Below are positions 20,953 to 33,454 of a DNA stretch of 33,745 nt, piece after piece. The number at the start of each line of letters is the position of its first letter. The stretch's first letter is position 1. The DNA is from a virus. The position numbers were made by a program, and so were the translations under genes. A model generated the notes under the pieces. The model searched no databases. It was not told the DNA's origin and saw nothing but the letters and a program-made list of their open reading frames with translations. The stretch lies in IMG/VR virus record IMGVR_UViG_3300007734_000599, positions 1-33,745 of that record; one strand, written 5' to 3'.

Positions 20953-21235
20953 GGCGGAGCGCGATCGCGGTCCGCGCCTGACCGATCAGTCCCCGGACGA
21001 GATCGTCCTCCGCGAGATCGAGCGCAAGCGTATAGAGGTCGTGCGATCTCCATGACACCTCCCAGACGGATAGGCAAGCGGTGCATTCGCGGCCCGAGCA
21101 TCCGGCGGGAAGGCGCGATCCGTGCAGACGGCGAGCGCGCTCGAGTGTGAGGATCACCTCGCGCATGACCCGCGCGGAGCGGAGCTTCTCGGGCGGATCG
21201 TCCGGTCCCGAGGAAAATTGGAGGACGGGGTCCAT
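20942..21235 (-). CDS. Lone minus-strand small protein, unknown
   Basis: The 97-residue protein (start MDPVLQFSSGPDDPPEKL) contains a helical REVILTLERARRLHG, a CSGRECTAC double Cys motif and an amphipathic end (LALDLAEDDLVRGLIG). A GGAGGAG precedes the ATG by only two bases. It is the only convincing minus-strand gene, filling an otherwise empty stretch and converging by 11 bases on the tail gene. Unknown function; a regulator is possible. Confidence 0.6.
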   Translation of the reverse strand: MDPVLQFSSGPDDPPEKLRSARVMREVILTLERARRLHGSRLPAGCSGRECTACLSVWEVSWRSHDLYTLALDLAEDDLVRGLIGQARTAIALRLMR

Positions 21236-21258
21236 CTCCTCCGATATACTAGCCTCAC
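21236..21258. promoter_or_regulatory. Candidate divergent promoter region
   Basis: The minus-strand gene and the rightward early genes are transcribed away from this AT-richer stretch. A TATACT (21245-21250) could be a rightward -10 box, and the opposite strand reads TAGTAT. No convincing -35 box at normal spacing was found for either direction. Confidence 0.3.
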
Positions 21259-21285
21259 GCGGGAATGATCCCGCAGAAGGAGACA
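21259..21285 (+). promoter_or_regulatory. Hairpin + Shine-Dalgarno leader (copy 1 of 5)
   Basis: GCGGGA-ATGA-TCCCGC forms a 6-bp hairpin (21259-21274), followed directly by AGAAGGAGACA, eight bases before the start at 21293. The same design occurs before the genes at 23193, 24013, 24368 and 26583. Confidence 0.65.
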
Positions 21286-21292
21286 TACCGAT

Positions 21293-21388
21293 ATGCCGAT
21301 GGATCTGGACCTCACGCCTCTGGCCATGATCGCGTTCCTCGCGGTCGTGGAGATCACGCACCGCATCCGAGAGAGGAGGGGAGCATGA
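21293..21388 (+). CDS. Small hydrophobic peptide (31 aa)
   Basis: A 31-residue peptide (MPMDLDLTPLAMIAFLAVVE then ITHRIRERRGA) has one possible membrane segment and a basic tail. It has a good ribosome-binding site (AGAAGGAGA) and the hairpin leader, and it overlaps the next start (ATGA). It may be a real membrane peptide or a leader peptide coupling translation to the downstream gene. Confidence 0.6.
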   Translation: MPMDLDLTPLAMIAFLAVVEITHRIRERRGA

Positions 21389-22179
21389 GTACCGACCTTG
21401 CACGCGCGGGTACGGCCGCGCTCGAGTCATACATCGCCGCCGGCGACATCGGTCGCCTCAATCCCGAGCAGAGGATCGCGCTCTACCGTGGAGTCTGCGA
21501 CTCCCTCGGCTTGAATCCCCTGACTCAGCCGTTCCAGTACCTCGTCCTCAACGGGAAGACAGTCCTCTACGCCACGAAGTCCTGCACGGAGCAACTCCGG
21601 CAGATTCACGGGGTGAGCGTGATGGATCTCTCGATCGAGACGAGAGGGGACATCCTCTGCATGACGGCGACCGTCCGCTCGAAGGACGGCCGCGAGGACC
21701 GCGCGACGGGAGCGGTGAACCTGAAGGGTTTGGCAGGAGACGCGCTCGCGAATGCATGGATGAAGTGCGAGACGAAGGCGAAAAGGCGCGCGACGCTCTC
21801 GATCTGCGGACTGGCCGTCCTCGACGAGAGCGAGGTCGACTCGATCCAGGGAGCGGTGCGCGAGGAGGCTCGGATCTCCTCGGCTCCCGAGAGCGCGCCG
21901 GCAGCCGCTCTACCCGAGAGGGAGCATCGGCGGATCGACGCTCCGCTCCCGAGCGAGGTCGAGATCGGCGACGGATGCACGATCTCGCCCGTCACGAACA
22001 AGGCCGGGAAAAAGATCTGGAAGCTCGAGACTCCATCCGGAGTCCTCGCGGTGATCGACCAGACGCTCGCGGCAGGGATCGAGGCGAGCATCGCGCTCGG
22101 CGCGCCGATCGTCGCGACGGTCGAGGAGCGCGGAGGGAAGCGAGTCGTCTCGAGGATCGAGGAGGCCGTCGATGCGTGA
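21385..22179 (+). CDS. Putative single-strand annealing recombinase (RecT/Erf-like)
   Basis: The 264-residue protein has a conserved N-terminal ~160-residue domain: GVCDSLGLNPLTQPFQYLVLNGKTVLY, ATKSCTEQLRQIHG, DALANAWMKCETKAKRRATLSICGLAVLDESEVDSI. The METKAKRR-type segment recalls phage RecT-family annealing proteins. A variable linker and a small C-terminal beta part (GCTISPVTNKAGKKIWKLETP) follow. If correct, it supports replication or recombination in the absence of a phage polymerase. Assignment is from pattern memory only. Confidence 0.6.
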   Translation: MSTDLARAGTAALESYIAAGDIGRLNPEQRIALYRGVCDSLGLNPLTQPFQYLVLNGKTVLYATKSCTEQLRQIHGVSVMDLSIETRGDILCMTATVRSKDGREDRATGAVNLKGLAGDALANAWMKCETKAKRRATLSICGLAVLDESEVDSIQGAVREEARISSAPESAPAAALPEREHRRIDAPLPSEVEIGDGCTISPVTNKAGKKIWKLETPSGVLAVIDQTLAAGIEASIALGAPIVATVEERGGKRVVSRIEEAVDA

Positions 22180-22534
22180 GATTGAGCCAGGAATCTCGGC
22201 CATCCGATCGCAACTCGGAGTCGTCGCGGAAGATCCTCGGATCTTCAAGGCGTACTCCGAGGATGAGGCGATCAGGGCGGCGAGGACGATCGCGGAGGAC
22301 GATCTGCTCGACCGCCGCGTGAGGAGGCTCGTCGCGGTCGGAATCCCGTTCGACCTGCGGCCGGCGCACCTCATGCCGAGGGTGGAGCGGTTTGCCGCGA
22401 GGATCAAGCGGTCGCCCGAGCGCGTCCGCTCCGATCTCATCCTCTGGGAGTCGCTCGATCCCGTGACGAGGTTCGATCTCGTCCACCGAGCGGTGCGGAT
22501 GATCCTCGCATGGAGGGCGGCGGCGACCTACTGA
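22172..22534 (+). CDS. Early-region protein, unknown
   Basis: The 120-residue, mostly helical and basic protein (AYSEDEAIRAARTIAEDDLL; RRLVAVGIPFDLRPAHLMPRV) is not recognised. It overlaps the annealing-protein gene by 8 bases and is followed by a strong terminator, so it ends this unit. Confidence 0.7.
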   Translation: MREIEPGISAIRSQLGVVAEDPRIFKAYSEDEAIRAARTIAEDDLLDRRVRRLVAVGIPFDLRPAHLMPRVERFAARIKRSPERVRSDLILWESLDPVTRFDLVHRAVRMILAWRAAATY

Positions 22535-22550
22535 GACAGCCATCGCATCG

Positions 22551-22590
22551 CGGAGCCGTCGGTTTCGGCCGGCGGCTCCGTTCTTTTTTC
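22551..22590 (+). terminator. Strong rho-independent terminator
   Basis: CGGAGCCG / CGGCTCCG is a perfect 8-bp stem, extended inward by a few pairs, followed by TTCTTTTTT (22581-22589). Confidence 0.9.
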
Positions 22591-22805
22591 GGAATCCGAA
22601 CATTTTTCCGCTTTACGGATCGCGTCTCCCCCCCTAGAACCCCCCCATCTCCCCGATCGAACTGATCCAGGTCTCGGGATCTCACCTCCGACTCTCTATC
22701 TCTCCTCCTCTCTCGGAGTCCTCCCTCGGGTTCCGATCCGGTAGTTGAGCGTCAATTGCACGACGCGCGCGAGGCGCGTCCGCCGCGCGAGCCGATGATC
22801 CGCGC
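22591..22805. other. Non-coding region with C-runs and a hairpin
   Basis: About 215 bases contain no supported gene. Two C-tracts lie near 22628-22655, followed by a pyrimidine-rich stretch to about 22730. A perfect inverted repeat, GACGCGC-GCGAG-GCGCGTC (22762-22780), lies just upstream of the next gene. No convincing promoter boxes were found. The region could hold an origin or operator, but nothing decisive is visible. Confidence 0.4.
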
Positions 22806-23162
22806 ATGGCGAAGGCGCATCCGCATCAATGGAGGTTCCCCGTACTCGCGGTCGAGCGCGTCATCGACGGCGACACGGTCGACCTCGTTCTCGATCTCGG
22901 ATTCGCGCTGCGGATGAAGCAGAGGATGAGGCTGCTCGGGATCGACACGCCGGAGATCGCCTCGAAGGATGTCGGTGACCGCGAGCGCGCCAGGGCGGCG
23001 CGCGAGTTCGCGGCCGCGTGGTGCGCGCGTCAGGAGGCGATCGTCGCGGAGACGACGAAGGATGAGAAGTACGGGCGGATTCTCGGGGATCTCGTCGGGG
23101 ACTCGACGCGGCTCACGGAGGAACTTCTCTCCGCGCGGCTCGCGAAGCGGTATACTCCCTGA
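22806..23162 (+). CDS. Staphylococcal-nuclease-like (thermonuclease) protein
   Basis: The 118-residue protein has the SNase pattern: VIDGDTVDLVLDLGF (about 18-32), MRLLGIDTPEI (about 41-51) and DEKYGRILGDL (about 95-105). Catalytic-type Asp/Arg/Glu residues are present. These enzymes are calcium-dependent phosphodiesterases; a phage role in host DNA breakdown or recombination is inferred. No signal peptide is visible, so it should act inside the cell. Confidence 0.85.
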   Translation: MAKAHPHQWRFPVLAVERVIDGDTVDLVLDLGFALRMKQRMRLLGIDTPEIASKDVGDRERARAAREFAAAWCARQEAIVAETTKDEKYGRILGDLVGDSTRLTEELLSARLAKRYTP

Positions 23163-23187
23163 GCCGCATGACGCGGCACAAGGAGAC
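23163..23187 (+). promoter_or_regulatory. Hairpin + Shine-Dalgarno leader (copy 2 of 5)
   Basis: GCCGC-ATGAC-GCGGC hairpin (23163-23177), then ACAAGGAGAC before the start at 23193. Here the stem polarity is inverted relative to the other copies. Confidence 0.5.
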
Positions 23188-23192
23188 TACCA

Positions 23193-23774
23193 ATGACGAG
23201 AGCAGAACTGACGAACTGGGTGCAGAGGGCGCGCGCGTTGTTCCGAGGTGACTGGGACGAGACGACCTTCGCGGTCGCGTTGCCGCGCATCGCGGCGGCG
23301 GAGTACGAGGACGCGGTCGCCGCGCTCGACGACTACGCGGCGGTCTGGGGAGGCGATCGCTCGAGGTTCATCGCGTCTCGGTTCTGGGAGTCACTTGAGA
23401 AGCACCGCGCTCGCCGGCGGGAGTCGAGCGCGGAGGCGAGCGCGGAGCGTCGCCTCGCGTGGGGAGTCGAGGCTACGGCCGAGGCCCGTCGAGTCGCCGC
23501 CGAGTGGAAGGCGATCGCGGAGCGCGTCGCGGACGCGCCGGCATCCGAGCGCGCTCGCGCGCTCGCGATCCTCGCGGGGTTCGGTTGGGGATCTCCTCCG
23601 GCCGATCCCTCGAGGTGGGGTCGGTCTTGGACGCTCGCGGTCGACGACCTGATCCGAGGAACCGCGTGTCCCGCTCGCGACGAGTCCGGAGGATGGGGAG
23701 CCGTCGTCGGTCCCGTCGAGTTCTGGGCGCGCGCTCCTCGGCCGTCGGAGATCGCCGCTAGCGGCCTCGGCTGA
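23193..23774 (+). CDS. Early-region protein, unknown
   Basis: The 193-residue protein is Ala/Arg/Glu-rich and helical (ELTNWVQRARALFRGDWDETTFAVALPRIAAAEYEDAVAAL-type start), with a Trp-rich C-terminal part (WGRSWTLAVDDLIRG; GGWGAVVGPVEFWAR). The N-terminus resembles loaders and replication accessory proteins only loosely, so no function is assigned. It has an AAGGAGAC ribosome-binding site. Confidence 0.72.
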   Translation: MTRAELTNWVQRARALFRGDWDETTFAVALPRIAAAEYEDAVAALDDYAAVWGGDRSRFIASRFWESLEKHRARRRESSAEASAERRLAWGVEATAEARRVAAEWKAIAERVADAPASERARALAILAGFGWGSPPADPSRWGRSWTLAVDDLIRGTACPARDESGGWGAVVGPVEFWARAPRPSEIAASGLG

Positions 23775-23794
23775 CGGACGGCTCGGAGGCCGCT
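23760..23794 (+). terminator. Stem-loop at gene end (possible weak terminator)
   Basis: A perfect 9-bp inverted repeat, AGCGGCCTC and GAGGCCGCT with a 17-base loop, spans the stop codon at 23774. No T-tract follows, so it may be a weak terminator or RNA-stability element. Confidence 0.3.
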
Positions 23795-23943
23795 CCAGTC
23801 GGAGGAACGCCTTGGGGCGAATCCCTGCCGTGTTTCCGTTGATCCTCGCCGCGAGTCCGATCGTGGTTCGGAATCCGTTCGGATTGAATACGGTCCGAAT
23901 ATACATACAATCCAGAATATTCTGAGAATTGCCGCGATTCATC

Positions 23944-23976
23944 TTGACGAGCGGTCGATCGGGAGTAGTATCCCGA
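23944..23976 (+). promoter_or_regulatory. Sigma70-type promoter with operator-like inverted repeat
   Basis: TTGACG (23944-23949), a 16-base spacer and TAGTAT (23966-23971) make the best promoter in the window. TCGGGA-GTAGTA-TCCCGA (23959-23976) is a perfect 6-bp inverted repeat over the -10 box, so a repressor could block it. The surrounding 240-base gap is AT-richer than the genes. Confidence 0.65.
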
Positions 23977-23984
23977 CATCGAAC

Positions 23985-24012
23985 GCGGCAGGAGCCGCAG
24001 AAGGAGACAGCG
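23985..24012 (+). promoter_or_regulatory. Hairpin + Shine-Dalgarno leader (copy 3 of 5)
   Basis: GCGGC-AGGA-GCCGC hairpin (23985-23998), then AGAAGGAGACAGCG up to the start at 24013. It lies just downstream of the promoter, so it would be near the 5' end of that transcript. Confidence 0.7.
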
Positions 24013-24285
24013 ATGGACAACCCGACGAACGACAACACGAACGACACCCCGATGATGCGCGCCATCCGCGCGCACGATGCCGCTTGCGACGCGGCCCAGG
24101 CTCGCAGGGCGCGCGAGGAGCGCGAATACCGGCAGATGTCGGGGTGGGGGAACTCCCTCACGGCCGGCCAATACCGCGAGTTGAACCGCTATATCGACCG
24201 CGTGATGCTCGACTCCCGCGAGATGGAGGCCGTGCAGCAGACTCGGATCGCGCTCTACGCGATCTCTGCGACGGATACGAAGTGA
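24013..24285 (+). CDS. Small early protein, unknown
   Basis: The 90-residue protein has an Asn/Asp-rich N-terminus (MDNPTNDNTNDTPMM) followed by helical charged sequence (AQARRAREEREYRQM; ELNRYIDRVMLDSREMEAVQQ). It is first after the promoter at 23944. Not recognised. Confidence 0.72.
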   Translation: MDNPTNDNTNDTPMMRAIRAHDAACDAAQARRAREEREYRQMSGWGNSLTAGQYRELNRYIDRVMLDSREMEAVQQTRIALYAISATDTK

Positions 24286-24337
24286 GGAACACCCCGTCCT
24301 CGCGGGAGGAATCCCTCGAGGACGATTCAATCGAACA

Positions 24338-24367
24338 GCGGCAGGAGCCGCAGAGAGCGAGACAGCG
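24338..24367 (+). promoter_or_regulatory. Hairpin + Shine-Dalgarno leader (copy 4 of 5)
   Basis: GCGGC-AGGA-GCCGC hairpin (24338-24351), then AGAGAGCGAGACAGCG before the start at 24368. It is nearly identical to copy 3, but the GGAGG core is degraded to AGCGA, so this gene may be translated less. Confidence 0.65.
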
Positions 24368-24667
24368 ATGCGGAATCACAACGATGGACGACTTGAGACG
24401 GCAGCGGCAGACTTCGAGGAGGTCGAGCGGCAGGAGAGCAACGGCGAGGTAGCAATAGAGTTCTGGGATGGCGGAGTCATCCAGATGTCGGTCGGCATCG
24501 AGTGGCTGAACCGGCAACTCCGCCGAGACGACATCTCGATGGATCAGACTCCGCTGTCGGAGGCGCAACTCAGGAGAGCGAGGGAACTGCTCCTCGGCCG
24601 CATCTGCTACATGATCGACGACAACATCGCGCGGATGGCATCGTCTGCTCTCGCGGAGGTGCGATGA
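24368..24667 (+). CDS. Small early protein, unknown
   Basis: The 99-residue protein (SNGEVAIEFWDGGVIQMSVGIEWLNRQLRRDD; LLGRICYMIDDNIARMASSAL) is mixed alpha/beta and acidic in the middle. Not recognised. It heads a run of five short genes joined by stop-start overlaps. Confidence 0.7.
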   Translation: MRNHNDGRLETAAADFEEVERQESNGEVAIEFWDGGVIQMSVGIEWLNRQLRRDDISMDQTPLSEAQLRRARELLLGRICYMIDDNIARMASSALAEVR

Positions 24668-24861
24668 TGAATCCGCTGTACCTCCGCGCAGTCGCGCACA
24701 TCGTCCGGCTTGGATTCACGCAGCCCGAGGCCGAGGCCATCGCGAGCATGGATCTCGACTCGGAGTGCGAGTACGAATCGCACTGGGAGTACATCCTCGA
24801 CTGCGATGCGAGCGACATCACCTTCTGGATCGGCATTTATCCGACAGGGGGCGCGTCATGA
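24664..24861 (+). CDS. Small early protein, unknown
   Basis: The 65-residue acidic protein (AHIVRLGFTQPEAEAIASMDLDSECE; ILDCDASDITFWIGIYP) is not recognised. It overlaps the preceding stop by an ATGATGA arrangement and the next start by ATGA. Confidence 0.65.
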   Translation: MMNPLYLRAVAHIVRLGFTQPEAEAIASMDLDSECEYESHWEYILDCDASDITFWIGIYPTGGAS

Positions 24862-25037
24862 TAGATCCCATCTACGCACGATGGTCAGATGGCGTCTACA
24901 CGATGATCGTAGACGGAGTCACCTACGCATCCTCCGACGGTATGTCGTGGATCAGAACGGACACCGGCGATGATGATGCACCAGAGGGGTATGTTCGTCT
25001 CGTCGGCGGACCAATGAATGATAGGGAGGTAGCATGA
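24858..25037 (+). CDS. Small early protein, unknown
   Basis: The 59-residue protein (YARWSDGVYTMIVDGVTYASSDGMSWIR) is predicted beta-rich. The surrounding sequence is slightly AT-richer than its neighbours. Overlaps both adjacent genes by 4 bases. Not recognised. Confidence 0.62.
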   Translation: MIDPIYARWSDGVYTMIVDGVTYASSDGMSWIRTDTGDDDAPEGYVRLVGGPMNDREVA

Positions 25038-25330
25038 GGCTCGCCACACTCGGTATGCTCGCCACCGAGTACGCGCACCGCTACGGATGCACGCACGAGG
25101 AGGCCGTCACCGAGATCGCCGCTACGCACCGGCTCGCGGAGATCCCGGAGATGCCCGTCCTGGTATTCGATGACGGAGGAGTCCTCGCGCTCGGGGACCA
25201 TTCCGATCCCGCGCGGCACGCGCGGCACGCGGAACTCCTCGACCTCGGGAGATCGTTCAAGTCGCACTACGCTCGGCTCCTCGCGAGGAGCCGGGACAGG
25301 AGGGAGGCCACCGATGCCGACGCTCTATGA
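25034..25330 (+). CDS. Small early protein, unknown
   Basis: The 98-residue protein begins with a helix-turn-helix-like stretch (MLATEYAHRYGCTHEEAVTEIAATHRL) and is His/Arg-rich toward the end. It could bind DNA, but the motif is weak. It overlaps the Gp157 gene by 17 bases. Confidence 0.65.
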   Translation: MRLATLGMLATEYAHRYGCTHEEAVTEIAATHRLAEIPEMPVLVFDDGGVLALGDHSDPARHARHAELLDLGRSFKSHYARLLARSRDRREATDADAL

Positions 25331-25823
25331 GATCAGTTCCGACCTCGCCGCGCTCGCGGAGATCCTCCGCGAGTCGGCCGGCGAGATCACTCCCGAGGCC
25401 GAGGCCGCGTTCTCCGCGCTCGAGGCGGAGATGATCTCCCAGACCGAGACGAAGGTCGACTCCTACTGCGCATTGATCGCGGAGCTTCAGGCTACCGCCG
25501 ACGCGCGCAAGGCAGAGGCCGCTCGCCTCTCCGCGCTCGCGCGGACCGACGAGAGGGCGGTCGAGTCCCTCCGATCCCGCCTCCTCTGGTTCATCGAGAC
25601 GAACCGCCTCGGGAAGATCAGGACGAGACGGTTCTCCGTCGCGGTCGTCGGCAACGGTGGACGCGCTCCGCTCGTCGTCGATCCGCTCGCGGATCTCCCC
25701 GACTGGGCGGCCGTCGTCGACCGCCGGCCGAACTCGGACGCAATCCGAGAACGGCTCGAGGCGGGAGAGACGCTCCCGTTCGCCTCGCTCGGGGAGCGCG
25801 GCAGGAGGCTGTCGATCCGATGA
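25314..25823 (+). CDS. Siphovirus Gp157-family protein
   Basis: The 169-residue protein has the Gp157 layout. A short N-terminal helix (LYEISSDLAALAEIL) is followed by a long coiled coil (about 20-95; SYCALIAELQATADARKAEAARLSALA) and a C-terminal beta part with RTRRFSVAVVGNGG. Gp157 was linked to phage resistance in Streptococcus thermophilus; in most phages it sits with replication/recombination genes, as here. Confidence 0.78.
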   Translation: MPTLYEISSDLAALAEILRESAGEITPEAEAAFSALEAEMISQTETKVDSYCALIAELQATADARKAEAARLSALARTDERAVESLRSRLLWFIETNRLGKIRTRRFSVAVVGNGGRAPLVVDPLADLPDWAAVVDRRPNSDAIRERLEAGETLPFASLGERGRRLSIR

Positions 25824-26065
25824 TCCGCCGACCCTATCTCTCCTCCCGCGTCGTCTCGGGACTCCAGTCGATCGCGGCACGGAACTCCGCGACCGATCCG
25901 GACGAGGCGACCGCTCTCCTCTGGATCTCCCGCCTCGCGGCGTGGAGGCTGCTACCATCGGAGCCGACGCGCAGGATGCGCGCGTCTGTCTCCCCGGCCG
26001 GCGAGGGACTCGATCCCTCGCCGGCTGAAACGGACGACGACGAAGGAGGCTCGATTGACGACTGA
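25820..26065 (+). CDS. Small early protein, unknown
   Basis: The 81-residue protein (SSRVVSGLQSIAARNSATDPDEATALLWISRLAAWRLL) has a helical core and an acidic tail (AETDDDEGGSIDD). ATGA overlap with the preceding gene and an 11-base overlap with the next. Not recognised. Confidence 0.62.
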   Translation: MIRRPYLSSRVVSGLQSIAARNSATDPDEATALLWISRLAAWRLLPSEPTRRMRASVSPAGEGLDPSPAETDDDEGGSIDD

Positions 26066-26249
26066 ACAGGGACGCGTGATCCGCGCGATGCGCGAGGGTG
26101 ACGAGGTTCGACTCATATCCGACGAAGGAGCGGAGATCGGATCGGTCCGACTGATCCAGTCCCCGAACAACACCCGTGTTCGCGTCGCGTTCAAGTTCGA
26201 CCGCGACATCCGCATCGACGCTCGCGCGAGGGAGGCCAACGATGCGTGA
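26055..26249 (+). CDS. Small beta-rich early protein, unknown
   Basis: The 64-residue protein (GRVIRAMREGDEVRLISDEGAEIGSVRLIQ; TRVRVAFKFDRDIRI) looks like a small CsrA-like or SH3-like beta barrel, but no family is certain. The TTG start has a good GAAGGAGG site upstream. CsrA-type identity was considered and is not supported strongly enough. Confidence 0.6.
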   Translation: MTTEQGRVIRAMREGDEVRLISDEGAEIGSVRLIQSPNNTRVRVAFKFDRDIRIDARAREANDA

Positions 26250-26565
26250 CACGCGCACGACGAGGCTCCCTCCGGCTCCTCTCCCTCTCTGGATCGCCGC
26301 GCGCAACACAGACCCAGAGACGAGCAGGGCTGCGGCGGCGAGCATCGACCGTCGCGGACTCTGCGCGATCCTCGAGCGCGCCTACCGCGAGGCAGGAGCT
26401 TCAGGACTGACCGACGCGGAGGCGGCGGAGCGGGTCGGGATCGACGGAGCATGGAAGCGATGCAGCGACCTCCGACGGCTCGGCATCATCGTCCCGACGG
26501 GCGCGACGCGCACGGCTCCGAGCGGGAGGCAACAGCAGGTGTGCAGGATCAATTATGCGGCATGA
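26242..26565 (+). CDS. Winged-helix-like DNA-binding protein
   Basis: The 107-residue protein has a helix-turn-helix region (GLTDAEAAERVGIDGAWKRCSDLRRLGIIV, about 54-83) followed by a wing-like TGATRTAPSGRQQQVCRI. Proteins of this type occur in phage replication regions as accessory DNA-binding proteins. Its stop lies inside the next gene's leader hairpin. Confidence 0.65.
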   Translation: MRDTRTTRLPPAPLPLWIAARNTDPETSRAAAASIDRRGLCAILERAYREAGASGLTDAEAAERVGIDGAWKRCSDLRRLGIIVPTGATRTAPSGRQQQVCRINYAA

Positions 26566-26582
26566 GCCGCGAGGAGACAGCA
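26557..26582 (+). promoter_or_regulatory. Hairpin + Shine-Dalgarno leader (copy 5 of 5)
   Basis: GCGGC-ATGA-GCCGC hairpin (26557-26570), then GAGGAGACAGCA before the start at 26583. The loop ATGA includes the upstream stop codon TGA, so ribosomes finishing the previous gene would open the hairpin. Confidence 0.65.
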
Positions 26583-26981
26583 ATGCAGGATGAAGACAGC
26601 GAGATCAGGGCGCGCCTCGAGCGCGACAGAGCGTACTGGATCGACGCAAGTATTCTCCACGACCTTGAAAAGGGGAAGGCGTGCGACTACGGGCAGCGGA
26701 TGGCGGCGAAGATGCTTCGCTCGCGTGGGGACTGGATCGTCCACGCCGAGAGCGAGATTGCACGGCTGCGGAAGGAACTCGACGAGGCGCGTCGGGAGAT
26801 CTGTTTCCTTCGCGCGTCGTCGACGAACGCGACGGAGATCGAGGAGCCGGAGGAAGTCGACGCGAGCGACCTCGAAGCGATGATCGCCGCCGCTCGAACG
26901 CAGGGACGGGACTCTATCAGGATCTCCGCTCGCGACCTCTGGCGGATGGCATCCGACAAGCGCGTAAGGGAGGAGGAATGA
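26583..26981 (+). CDS. Early coiled-coil protein, unknown
   Basis: The 132-residue acidic protein has a predicted coiled coil (AESEIARLRKELDEARREICFL, about 57-78) between helical segments. The C-terminal part (DLEAMIAAARTQGRDSIRISARDLWRMA) is also helical. Not recognised. Overlaps the next gene by 4 bases. Confidence 0.68.
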   Translation: MQDEDSEIRARLERDRAYWIDASILHDLEKGKACDYGQRMAAKMLRSRGDWIVHAESEIARLRKELDEARREICFLRASSTNATEIEEPEEVDASDLEAMIAAARTQGRDSIRISARDLWRMASDKRVREEE

Positions 26982-32763: not shown

Positions 32764-33454
32764 ACTTCGTCTCGACTGGTGCTCGCATGATGCCGCGAAG
32801 TACGCGGTCGAGAAGTGGCACTACAGCAGATGTCTCCCATCAGGCAAGATCGTGAAAATAGGAGTGTGGGAGGATAGTTCATTCATCGGTGTGATCTTGT
32901 TTTCCAAAGGTGCAGCACCGCAATCGCATTGCCCATATGGATTGAAAAACACCGAGATATGCGAGCTGACTCGCGTTAGTCTGGCTCGACATCGGACGAC
33001 AGTATCGAAGATCGTCTCGATCGCGATTCGCATGCTATTGAAGCAGTCGCCTGGGCTTCGTTTGATCGTCTCGTATGCTGATCCGGAACAAGGTCATCAC
33101 GGAGGAATCTATGCCGCAGGGAACTGGACCTATGTCGGGCCAACATCTGCGTGCGAACACTTCGTCTATGTTTCAACTGGAGAACGAGTACATAGCAAGA
33201 CACTAAAAACCGGGCGAAGGGGACTTGCAACAAAACTGAAGTCCCAAGGCCTCATCCGATCTATAAAGGTATGGAAACACAAGTTCATCATGCCGCTAGA
33301 TCAGGAAATGCGCGCTAGAATCGCGCCTCTTGCGAAGGCATATCCAAAGCGCGCCGGAAGTGCTGCTAGCGGCACGACCGACTTCCAGTCGGTAAGGGGC
33401 GGTGCAACTCCGACCCCGGCGCTTCCCCACAACGAACGGAGATCCGATGGGTAG
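32747..33454 (+). CDS. mom: Mom-like DNA adenine modification protein
   Basis: The 235-residue protein (phage Mu Mom is about the same length) has the Mom/GNAT signature. Motifs are WHYSRCLPSGKIVKIGVWED (24-43), CELTRVSLARHRTTVSKIVSIA (72-93) and VSYADPEQGHHGGIYAAGNW (108-127). Mu Mom converts adenine in DNA to a methylcarbamoyl-modified form that protects against many restriction enzymes. It starts 17 bases inside the ParB-like gene, recalling the com/mom overlap of Mu. The last ~35 residues (TDFQSVRGGATPTPALPHNE) are encoded by a tRNA-like element and may not be part of the functional fold. Its stop overlaps the small terminase start. Confidence 0.85.
   Translation: MSSRPELRLDWCSHDAAKYAVEKWHYSRCLPSGKIVKIGVWEDSSFIGVILFSKGAAPQSHCPYGLKNTEICELTRVSLARHRTTVSKIVSIAIRMLLKQSPGLRLIVSYADPEQGHHGGIYAAGNWTYVGPTSACEHFVYVSTGERVHSKTLKTGRRGLATKLKSQGLIRSIKVWKHKFIMPLDQEMRARIAPLAKAYPKRAGSAASGTTDFQSVRGGATPTPALPHNERRSDG
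33352..33421 (+). ncRNA. tRNA-like element, anticodon-type TCC (Gly), inside mom 3' end
   Basis: A 70-base stretch can fold as a cloverleaf. The acceptor CGCCGGA (33352-33358) pairs with CCCGGCG (33415-33421) at 6 of 7 positions. The D-stem is TGCT/GGCA (one wobble). The anticodon stem is a perfect ACCGA/TCGGT with loop CTTCCAG. The T-stem GGCGG/CCGAC pairs at 4 of 5 positions, with loop TGCAACT in place of the canonical TTCRANN. The D-loop lacks the usual GG and no CCA follows, so it is more likely a tRNA mimic or remnant than a working tRNA. Confidence 0.45.

Follow-up and report, generated by a model that had tools for sequence, protein, structure and literature searches.

The window analysed here is the whole 33,745-base virus record IMGVR_UViG_3300007734_000599, which comes from an uncultured phage and carries genes for terminase, portal and major head protein, followed from about 21 kb by an early region. 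Five leaders lie in this early region, each composed of a small GC hairpin and a Shine-Dalgarno (SD) sequence directly ahead of an early gene, and the same region encodes a small CsrA-like protein (Table 1). All five hairpins were found ahead of the gene starts named by the original prediction, and in the fifth copy the upstream stop codon TGA (26563-26565) indeed sits inside the loop. The idea of a hairpin joined to a common ribosome-binding site stood for all five copies, with two departures: the SD of copy 4 is degenerate (AGAGAGCGAGACA) and the linker of copy 5 is shorter (GAGGAGACA).

Our belief in these leaders comes from comparison across relatives and not from folding energy. Single-sequence folding of the copies was unimpressive (z of -0.7 to -2.3), and the hairpin of copy 4 was disrupted in the lowest-energy fold and kept in the centroid. 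A covariance model, R1, was built on 17 leaders from relatives only, with no window sequence included (alignment A2, which replaced a first MAFFT alignment, A1, with misaligned stems), and the window was scanned with filters off. The top five window matches were exactly the five leaders, at 18.3-31.1 bits (E-values, E, of 3.6e-6 to 0.005). The best site outside the leaders was antisense, at 12.9 bits and E 0.11, in agreement with the claim that late genes lack the element. Rfam gave zero matches at the gathering score across the window, and zero at E<=1 in 21000-26700.

The element is spread among related phages and confined to their early genes. At E<=0.1, R1 matched 29 of 35 related virus records, and at E<=0.01 it matched 10 of 50 further records (46 terminase relatives and four others, mostly short structural fragments), one of which, G058 at 16.1 bits, is probably a chance match. 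None of 23 more distant virus records was matched. One of five metagenome-assembled genomes (MAGs) was matched, the Rhodobacteraceae MAG G108, whose binning is unverified; since this match adjoins a member of the CsrA-like family, it represents a phage contig of the group. In terms of terminase loci, 72 of 80 were searched with the model (25, then L077 via record G007, then 46), and eight fragments of about 4 kb were left out. After deduplication, 97 matches of at least 18.3 bits were obtained; all 97 lie on the coding strand, 95 stand ahead of a start codon and 96 have an ANGRN or ANGA loop. The leaders precede 47 unlinked protein clusters, a few of which rest on weak matches, and thus the element travels with an expression context and not with one gene family. 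A scan of viral contigs for ANGGA-6N-AGAAGGAGACA returned 102 stretches, and among those with a hairpin near the SD, ANGRN loops occurred only in L156, L165 and L169, all of this phage group. Relatives of the recombinase-like protein fall into two groups, L002-L009 (52-56% identity) with leaders and the other 25 loci (41-58%, mostly partial matches) without.

Table 1. Leaders, promoter-like boxes and genes of the early region, in window positions (aa, amino acids; nt, nucleotides; ORF, open reading frame)
Feature	Position	Strand	Description	Support
-10-like box TATACT	21245..21250	+	8 nt 5' of hairpin 1	
Leader 1	21259..21285	+	hairpin 21259-21274 GCGGGA-ATGA-TCCCGC (6 bp) + AGAAGGAGACA	R1 27.0 bits, E 3.7e-5
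Hydrophobic ORF, 31 aa	21293..21388	+	right behind leader 1; overlaps start of recombinase-like gene 21385-22179	
-10-like box TATACT	23151..23156	+	6 nt 5' of hairpin 2	
Leader 2	23162..23188	+	hairpin 23163-23177 GCCGC-ATGAC-GCGGC (5 bp) + ACAAGGAGACT	R1 22.3 bits, E 5.3e-4
Conserved early gene	23193..23774	+	source of the ortholog set	homologs in 23/35 records
Leader 3	23984..24009	+	hairpin 23985-23998 GCGGC-AGGA-GCCGC (5 bp) + AGAAGGAGACA	R1 31.1 bits, E 3.6e-6
Early gene	24013..24285	+	behind leader 3	
Leader 4	24337..24364	+	hairpin 24338-24351 GCGGC-AGGA-GCCGC (5 bp) + AGAGAGCGAGACA	R1 20.0 bits, E 0.0019
Early gene	24368..24667	+	behind leader 4	
Siphovirus Gp157-like gene	25314..25823	+	usually followed by CsrA-like gene	Pfam PF05565 E 4.8e-28; synteny
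CsrA-like protein, 64 aa	26055..26249	+	TTG start; without a leader of the hairpin kind; proposed trans-acting factor	fold matches; family profile
Leader 5	26556..26579	+	hairpin 26557-26570 GCGGC-ATGA-GCCGC (5 bp) + GAGGAGACA	R1 18.3 bits, E 0.005
Early gene	26583..26981	+	behind leader 5	

The rows of A2 were picked for exact hairpins, so that the covariation in A2, where both-side changes occur in all six pairs, is biased. A fair test was therefore made with homologs of gene 23193-23774, which a protein profile, used on its own, had found in 23 of 35 records; the upstream sequences were read afterwards. By a criterion of at least 4 bp and an ANGRN or ANGA loop, the loop pattern being learned from the same phages, all 23 orthologs keep the hairpin, compared with 64 of 2,300 dinucleotide shuffles. 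For 14 more distinct leaders chosen from these orthologs (alignment A7), 94.8% of the cells pair, and the value falls to 21-29% when the partner is slid by one base; double, compensatory changes were found in five of six pairs, and the covariation score was 0.535 versus 0.145 after shuffling. A constant shape with a varying stem, as originally predicted, is thus seen both in A2 and in the unselected orthologs. Because stems drift with compensation and the loop stays A-N-G-R-(N) or A-N-G-A, selection acts on RNA shape plus loop.

These data also bear on the simplest alternatives, in which the element is an operator or promoter element acting in DNA, or a chance product of GC-rich spacers. The element is palindromic and promoter-like boxes lie nearby in half of the cases. 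However, copies within a single genome have different half-sites yet preserve both the pairing and an asymmetric loop, and compensatory stem changes together with a single orientation in 97/97 matches rule out a DNA palindrome; chance is ruled out by the R1 ranking of the window copies and by the contrast between 23/23 orthologs and their shuffles. We consider alternatives of this kind extremely improbable. It is nearly certain that the hairpin leader is a real conserved RNA element, and it constitutes a well-supported RNA family absent from Rfam, independently of any protein.

After filtering for loop, stem and start, 98 of 115 matches were kept in a hairpin catalogue, whose loop invariance is partly imposed by this filter, and 60 distinct hairpins were present among the leaders. 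Every row of A2 (17/17) and of A7 (14/14) has A at loop position 1 and G at position 3, position 4 is G or A, and four-base loops are AGGA or ATGA. On the 3' side of the hairpin follow a short linker, GAGAC and the start codon, and GAGAC is retained even where the SD is degraded (AAGCGAGACA, AAGAGAGACA). The loop contains GGA in 36 of the 60 distinct hairpins and in two of the five window copies. The SD itself has the form A-N-G-G-A in 62 of 98 leaders, at a distance of 9-18 nt from the loop G.

Many leaders may stand close to a transcription start. A -10-like box was found in 49 of 90 leaders, mostly 5-12 nt upstream (14.3 expected), including window leaders 1 and 2, and hence the 5' end of the mRNA often coincides with the start of the hairpin or lies close to it, with the SD outside the stem. 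Such an arrangement would suit hairpins that work without any protein, by protecting mRNA ends and holding the ribosome-binding site open. Stability of this kind, however, needs no constant A-N-G-R-(N) loop on a drifting stem, and 41 of the 90 leaders have no -10-like box. We therefore regard purely protein-independent hairpins as rather unlikely.

Several minor features of the leaders were also observed. Two tandem hairpins stand ahead of the first early gene in five records (G001, G002, G003, G019 and G024), and the second loop in G001-G003 is TCGGA and not A-N-G-R-N. The conserved block CTCxTCGAATCxGCGCCGT lies about 30 nt 5' of some leaders (L272, L276, L281 and L248), possibly as part of another stem-loop or of a promoter. 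The first leader often precedes a tiny, mostly hydrophobic peptide of 27-33 aa and not the recombinase-like gene directly (the 31-aa ORF of the window; L250, L259, L262, L271 and L275), and the sequence of this peptide varies between phages. The -10-like box of window leader 2 is contained in the end of a staphylococcal nuclease-like gene (Pfam SNase, 22806-23162).

The original prediction had suggested that a phage RNA-binding protein might recognise the hairpins, and a candidate was found in the same early region. Comparison of early ORFs, which like protein-family detection and synteny covered 25 records and the window (five of them partial: G003, G007, G021, G023 and G028), gave a family of 56-89 aa proteins, of which the 64-aa protein is the window member. 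For two members a match to Pfam CsrA was obtained in the expected register (E 0.001), and 4 of the 16 members of the family alignment A5 match at E<=10. A CsrA profile derived from a Planctomycetales MAG placed the same two members first among 7,562 phage ORFs, at a weak E of 0.013, with five members in the top 21 and the others far lower. The hhalign score of the family was 20.5, and none of 200 column-shuffled CsrA decoys exceeded 17.2. Moreover, the window protein was modelled template-free by AlphaFold (pLDDT 78), and the first match of this model among 350,542 PDB chains was the RsmA of P. aeruginosa (probability 0.97, TM 0.58/0.64); after re-alignment rows 1-7 and 9 were CsrA/Rsm entries with Z from 6.0 to 3.1, the first unrelated row having 3.1. 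CsrA has a conserved Arg, Arg44, where its last strand ends; this residue is invariant in alignment A6, and in A5, judged by eye, 13 of 16 members have Arg at the aligned position.

Several observations weigh against kinship with CsrA. No member reaches the cut-off of Pfam PF02599 (27 bits), the best having 19.5 bits and E 0.00099, and hence we name the protein CsrA-like and not CsrA; a first Pfam CsrA scan over nine records had given no match. The nominal hhalign probability is 16%, the Foldseek E for RsmA is 0.47, and the top Z of the window model (6.0) is below 8. CsrA/Rsm proteins have a five-strand, domain-swapped dimer fold. The model of a second member (L379), with five strands, does not place CsrA on top and retrieves only RsmF/RsmN, with Z 2.9 at ranks 30 and 33. 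The best NCBIfam score of the window protein belongs to an unrelated MCE family (E 5e-5), and this protein has Ala at the position aligned with Arg44, with Arg one residue later. A PDB search with the single sequence returned repeat-protein noise, and one with the family profile found RsmN at E 1.7 only. Taking both sides together, we think it likely that the family is divergent kin of CsrA/Rsm. By tblastn, three members had no match in 50,697 phage records, and a small csr-like query (L256) retrieved only its own two phages. In one lineage the proteins are extended at the C-terminus by CxxC...CxxC, which resembles a zinc ribbon (L263:5052-5318, L265:3156-3416, L381:461-721 and L382:1439-1705), and loops in this lineage are ACGAT or ATGAT where leaders were read.

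The protein and the leaders occur together wherever a contig spans both regions. Among the first 35 records the CsrA-like gene is present in 23, and all 23 have leader matches at E<=0.1, weak in three (G009, G020 and G023). Conversely, 23 of the 29 leader-positive records have the gene, and the six without it (G002, G003, G004, G005, G021 and G034) end less than 2 kb past the last leader. Where the contig reaches far enough, the gene follows the recombinase leader at a distance of at most about 5 kb and usually adjoins Gp157. In the next 50 records, seven have both, three have the leader alone (G074 and G079 near contig ends, and the weak G058) and two have the gene alone near a contig end; in the 23 distant virus records neither leader nor gene was found. 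However, shared ancestry of a syntenic block could yield the same co-occurrence, which is thus consistent with a functional pair without proving one.

Loop class largely follows the phage lineage and not the gene. Loops are exclusively of the GG type, 36/36, in G005, G006, G007, G026, G030 and G032, and exclusively of the GA type, 6/6 and all ACGAT, in G021, G022 and G025; the remaining records are mixed. The CsrA-like proteins of G022 and G025 have the C-terminal Cys pair motif, and the G021 contig stops before the gene.

This pattern is relevant to the possibility that the leaders are targets of host CsrA/Rsm, through which the phage would read host physiology. The presence of GGA in the loops of 36 of the 60 distinct hairpins speaks for it, but the loop class shifts between phage lineages, and a CsrA-like gene is carried by the phages themselves. 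In addition, G108, the one MAG with a phage of the group, has just one weak CsrA-type match, at 28.7 bits. We judge recognition by a host protein very unlikely.

A different conserved early phage protein might instead bind the loops, with the CsrA-like protein acting elsewhere, for example on host mRNAs as does plasmid RsmQ; a host-acting plasmid Rsm has been published (PMC9928087). Several further early genes, to which no function has been assigned, show the same degree of conservation (22172-22534 in 21 records and 23193-23774 in 22, counted from an ORF list that contains shadow frames too), and neither a Pfam nor a PHROG assignment was obtained for gene 23193-23774. Moreover, 24 of the 60 distinct hairpins, including three of the five window copies, have loops of ANGA(N) or ANGG plus C or T and so lack GGA, the CsrA core; this also weighs against recognition by the CsrA-like protein itself, as do the 36 of 98 leaders that have no A-N-G-G-A at the SD. 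On the other hand, no other early candidate resembles a known hairpin-loop binder, and the ANGGA/AGGA loop and the CsrA-like fold agree although they were reached by separate routes. Another phage-encoded binder therefore seems unlikely to us.

Our favoured and more probable reading is a Csr-like system, encoded by the phage, that controls the translation of early genes and has the leaders as its RNA operators. The original prediction of a shared RNA-level control element is supported by the ortholog hairpins, the compensatory pairs, the exclusion of chance and the candidate protein. The CsrA-like protein probably binds the hairpins and controls early protein synthesis, the direct interaction being what we infer from loop, fold and co-occurrence. 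According to this model, the loop on each early mRNA, A-N-G-R-(N) or A-N-G-A on a short stem, would stand 9-18 nt 5' of the SD. It would be bound by a small protein of the dimer type and of CsrA/Rsm fold, whose gene lies close to the end of the early region; this protein would often bind the SD too, and ribosomes would thereby be kept off all leader-bearing early genes simultaneously. The outcome would be an early-to-late switch like that of T4 RegA, with structured operators, in which early translation is dampened once the protein has been made. Repression, rather than activation or stabilisation, and the timing of control are inferences too. Because the CsrA-like gene of the window has no such leader, self-feedback is not suggested. 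In the G006-type phages the SD of the CsrA-like gene stands behind a hairpin of another kind, long and perfectly paired (12 bp, GCAA loop; at about 10810-10849 in L248, and also in relatives). More tentatively, and at somewhat less than even chance, the system may be a self-contained Csr system, with a diverged CsrA-fold repressor, several operators of the same shape per genome and specificities of protein and loop that co-evolved from the classical GGA to A-N-G-R, which coordinates the shut-off of early translation.

Among known systems, CsrA/RsmA/RsmE, whose operators are A(N)GGA(X) hairpins located at ribosome-binding sites with the GGA core in an apical loop, is similar in its small beta-rich protein of matched fold, in a loop motif carried on a stem beside the SD, and in the frequent second A-N-G-G-A that is found here at the SD. 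In a structural study of RsmE, the sites are such loops borne on stems, and the pentaloops AAGGA and AGGGA are reported to bind with high affinity (PMC4005645). The phage system differs in its strongly diverged protein, in a loop relaxed to A-N-G-R-(N), and in having the same standard operator in front of many genes within a single phage. CsrA-family genes carried by phages are not new in themselves: a 2020 survey using E. coli CsrA and PSI-BLAST described csrA alleles in 30 phages and called for loss-of-function tests (PMC7366521). The passages of that survey on these alleles name no phage targets, whereas the family described here comes with an apparent regulon.

T4 RegA, of 122 aa and another fold, acts on unstructured A+U-rich operators overlapping AUG (PMC3014915). 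The likeness to it concerns the proposed role only, in which one phage protein stops translation of many early mRNAs by occluding initiation; the operators here are GC hairpins 5' of the SD, and the protein is smaller and of a different fold. No RegA family was among the Pfam matches of 16 CsrA-like members. The nearest repeated phage elements are the Start Associated Sequence (SAS) of cluster K mycobacteriophages, a fixed 13-bp GGGATAGGAGCCC-like sequence at the ribosome-binding site, SD included (PMC3203893), and the ESAS repeats of Microbacterium cluster EF phages, for which the authors judged support for RNA pairing lacking (PMC7302621). Like the leaders, these elements are repeated at the starts of many non-structural genes of different families in one genome half, but they are different in structure, since the leaders here have stems that change by compensation and leave the SD outside, and they come with a candidate factor. 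Sixty distinct hairpins with the SD outside the stem do not belong to the fixed 13-bp consensus of PMC3203893.

Taken separately, Csr control, csrA genes in phages and translational repressors of phages are already known (PMC7366521, PMC3014915). If the more tentative, self-contained Csr system is real, this would be the first phage regulon in which a Csr-type factor and its own-genome targets are both in view; no report of a phage Csr-type factor with own-genome operators was found in the open-licence papers searched. With a factor and its probable targets in one small genome, it can be asked directly whether a phage Csr-type protein times the expression of its own genes. In addition, lineage-specific changes of the loop (ANGGA, ANGAT and ANGA) beside a diverging protein offer natural material on the evolution of Csr specificity.

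No close DNA relative of the phage was found among sequenced phages, and none of these matched the early region at the DNA level. The recombinase-like protein had three partial matches, below 60% identity, and the 1,021 matches of the terminase were every one below 60% identity. A terminase-based host search gave six loci, one of them close (78% identity, Rhodobacteraceae MAG), which does not establish the host. A tRNA-Gly (TCC) gene at 33351-33423, close to the right end of the window, might help in finding it.

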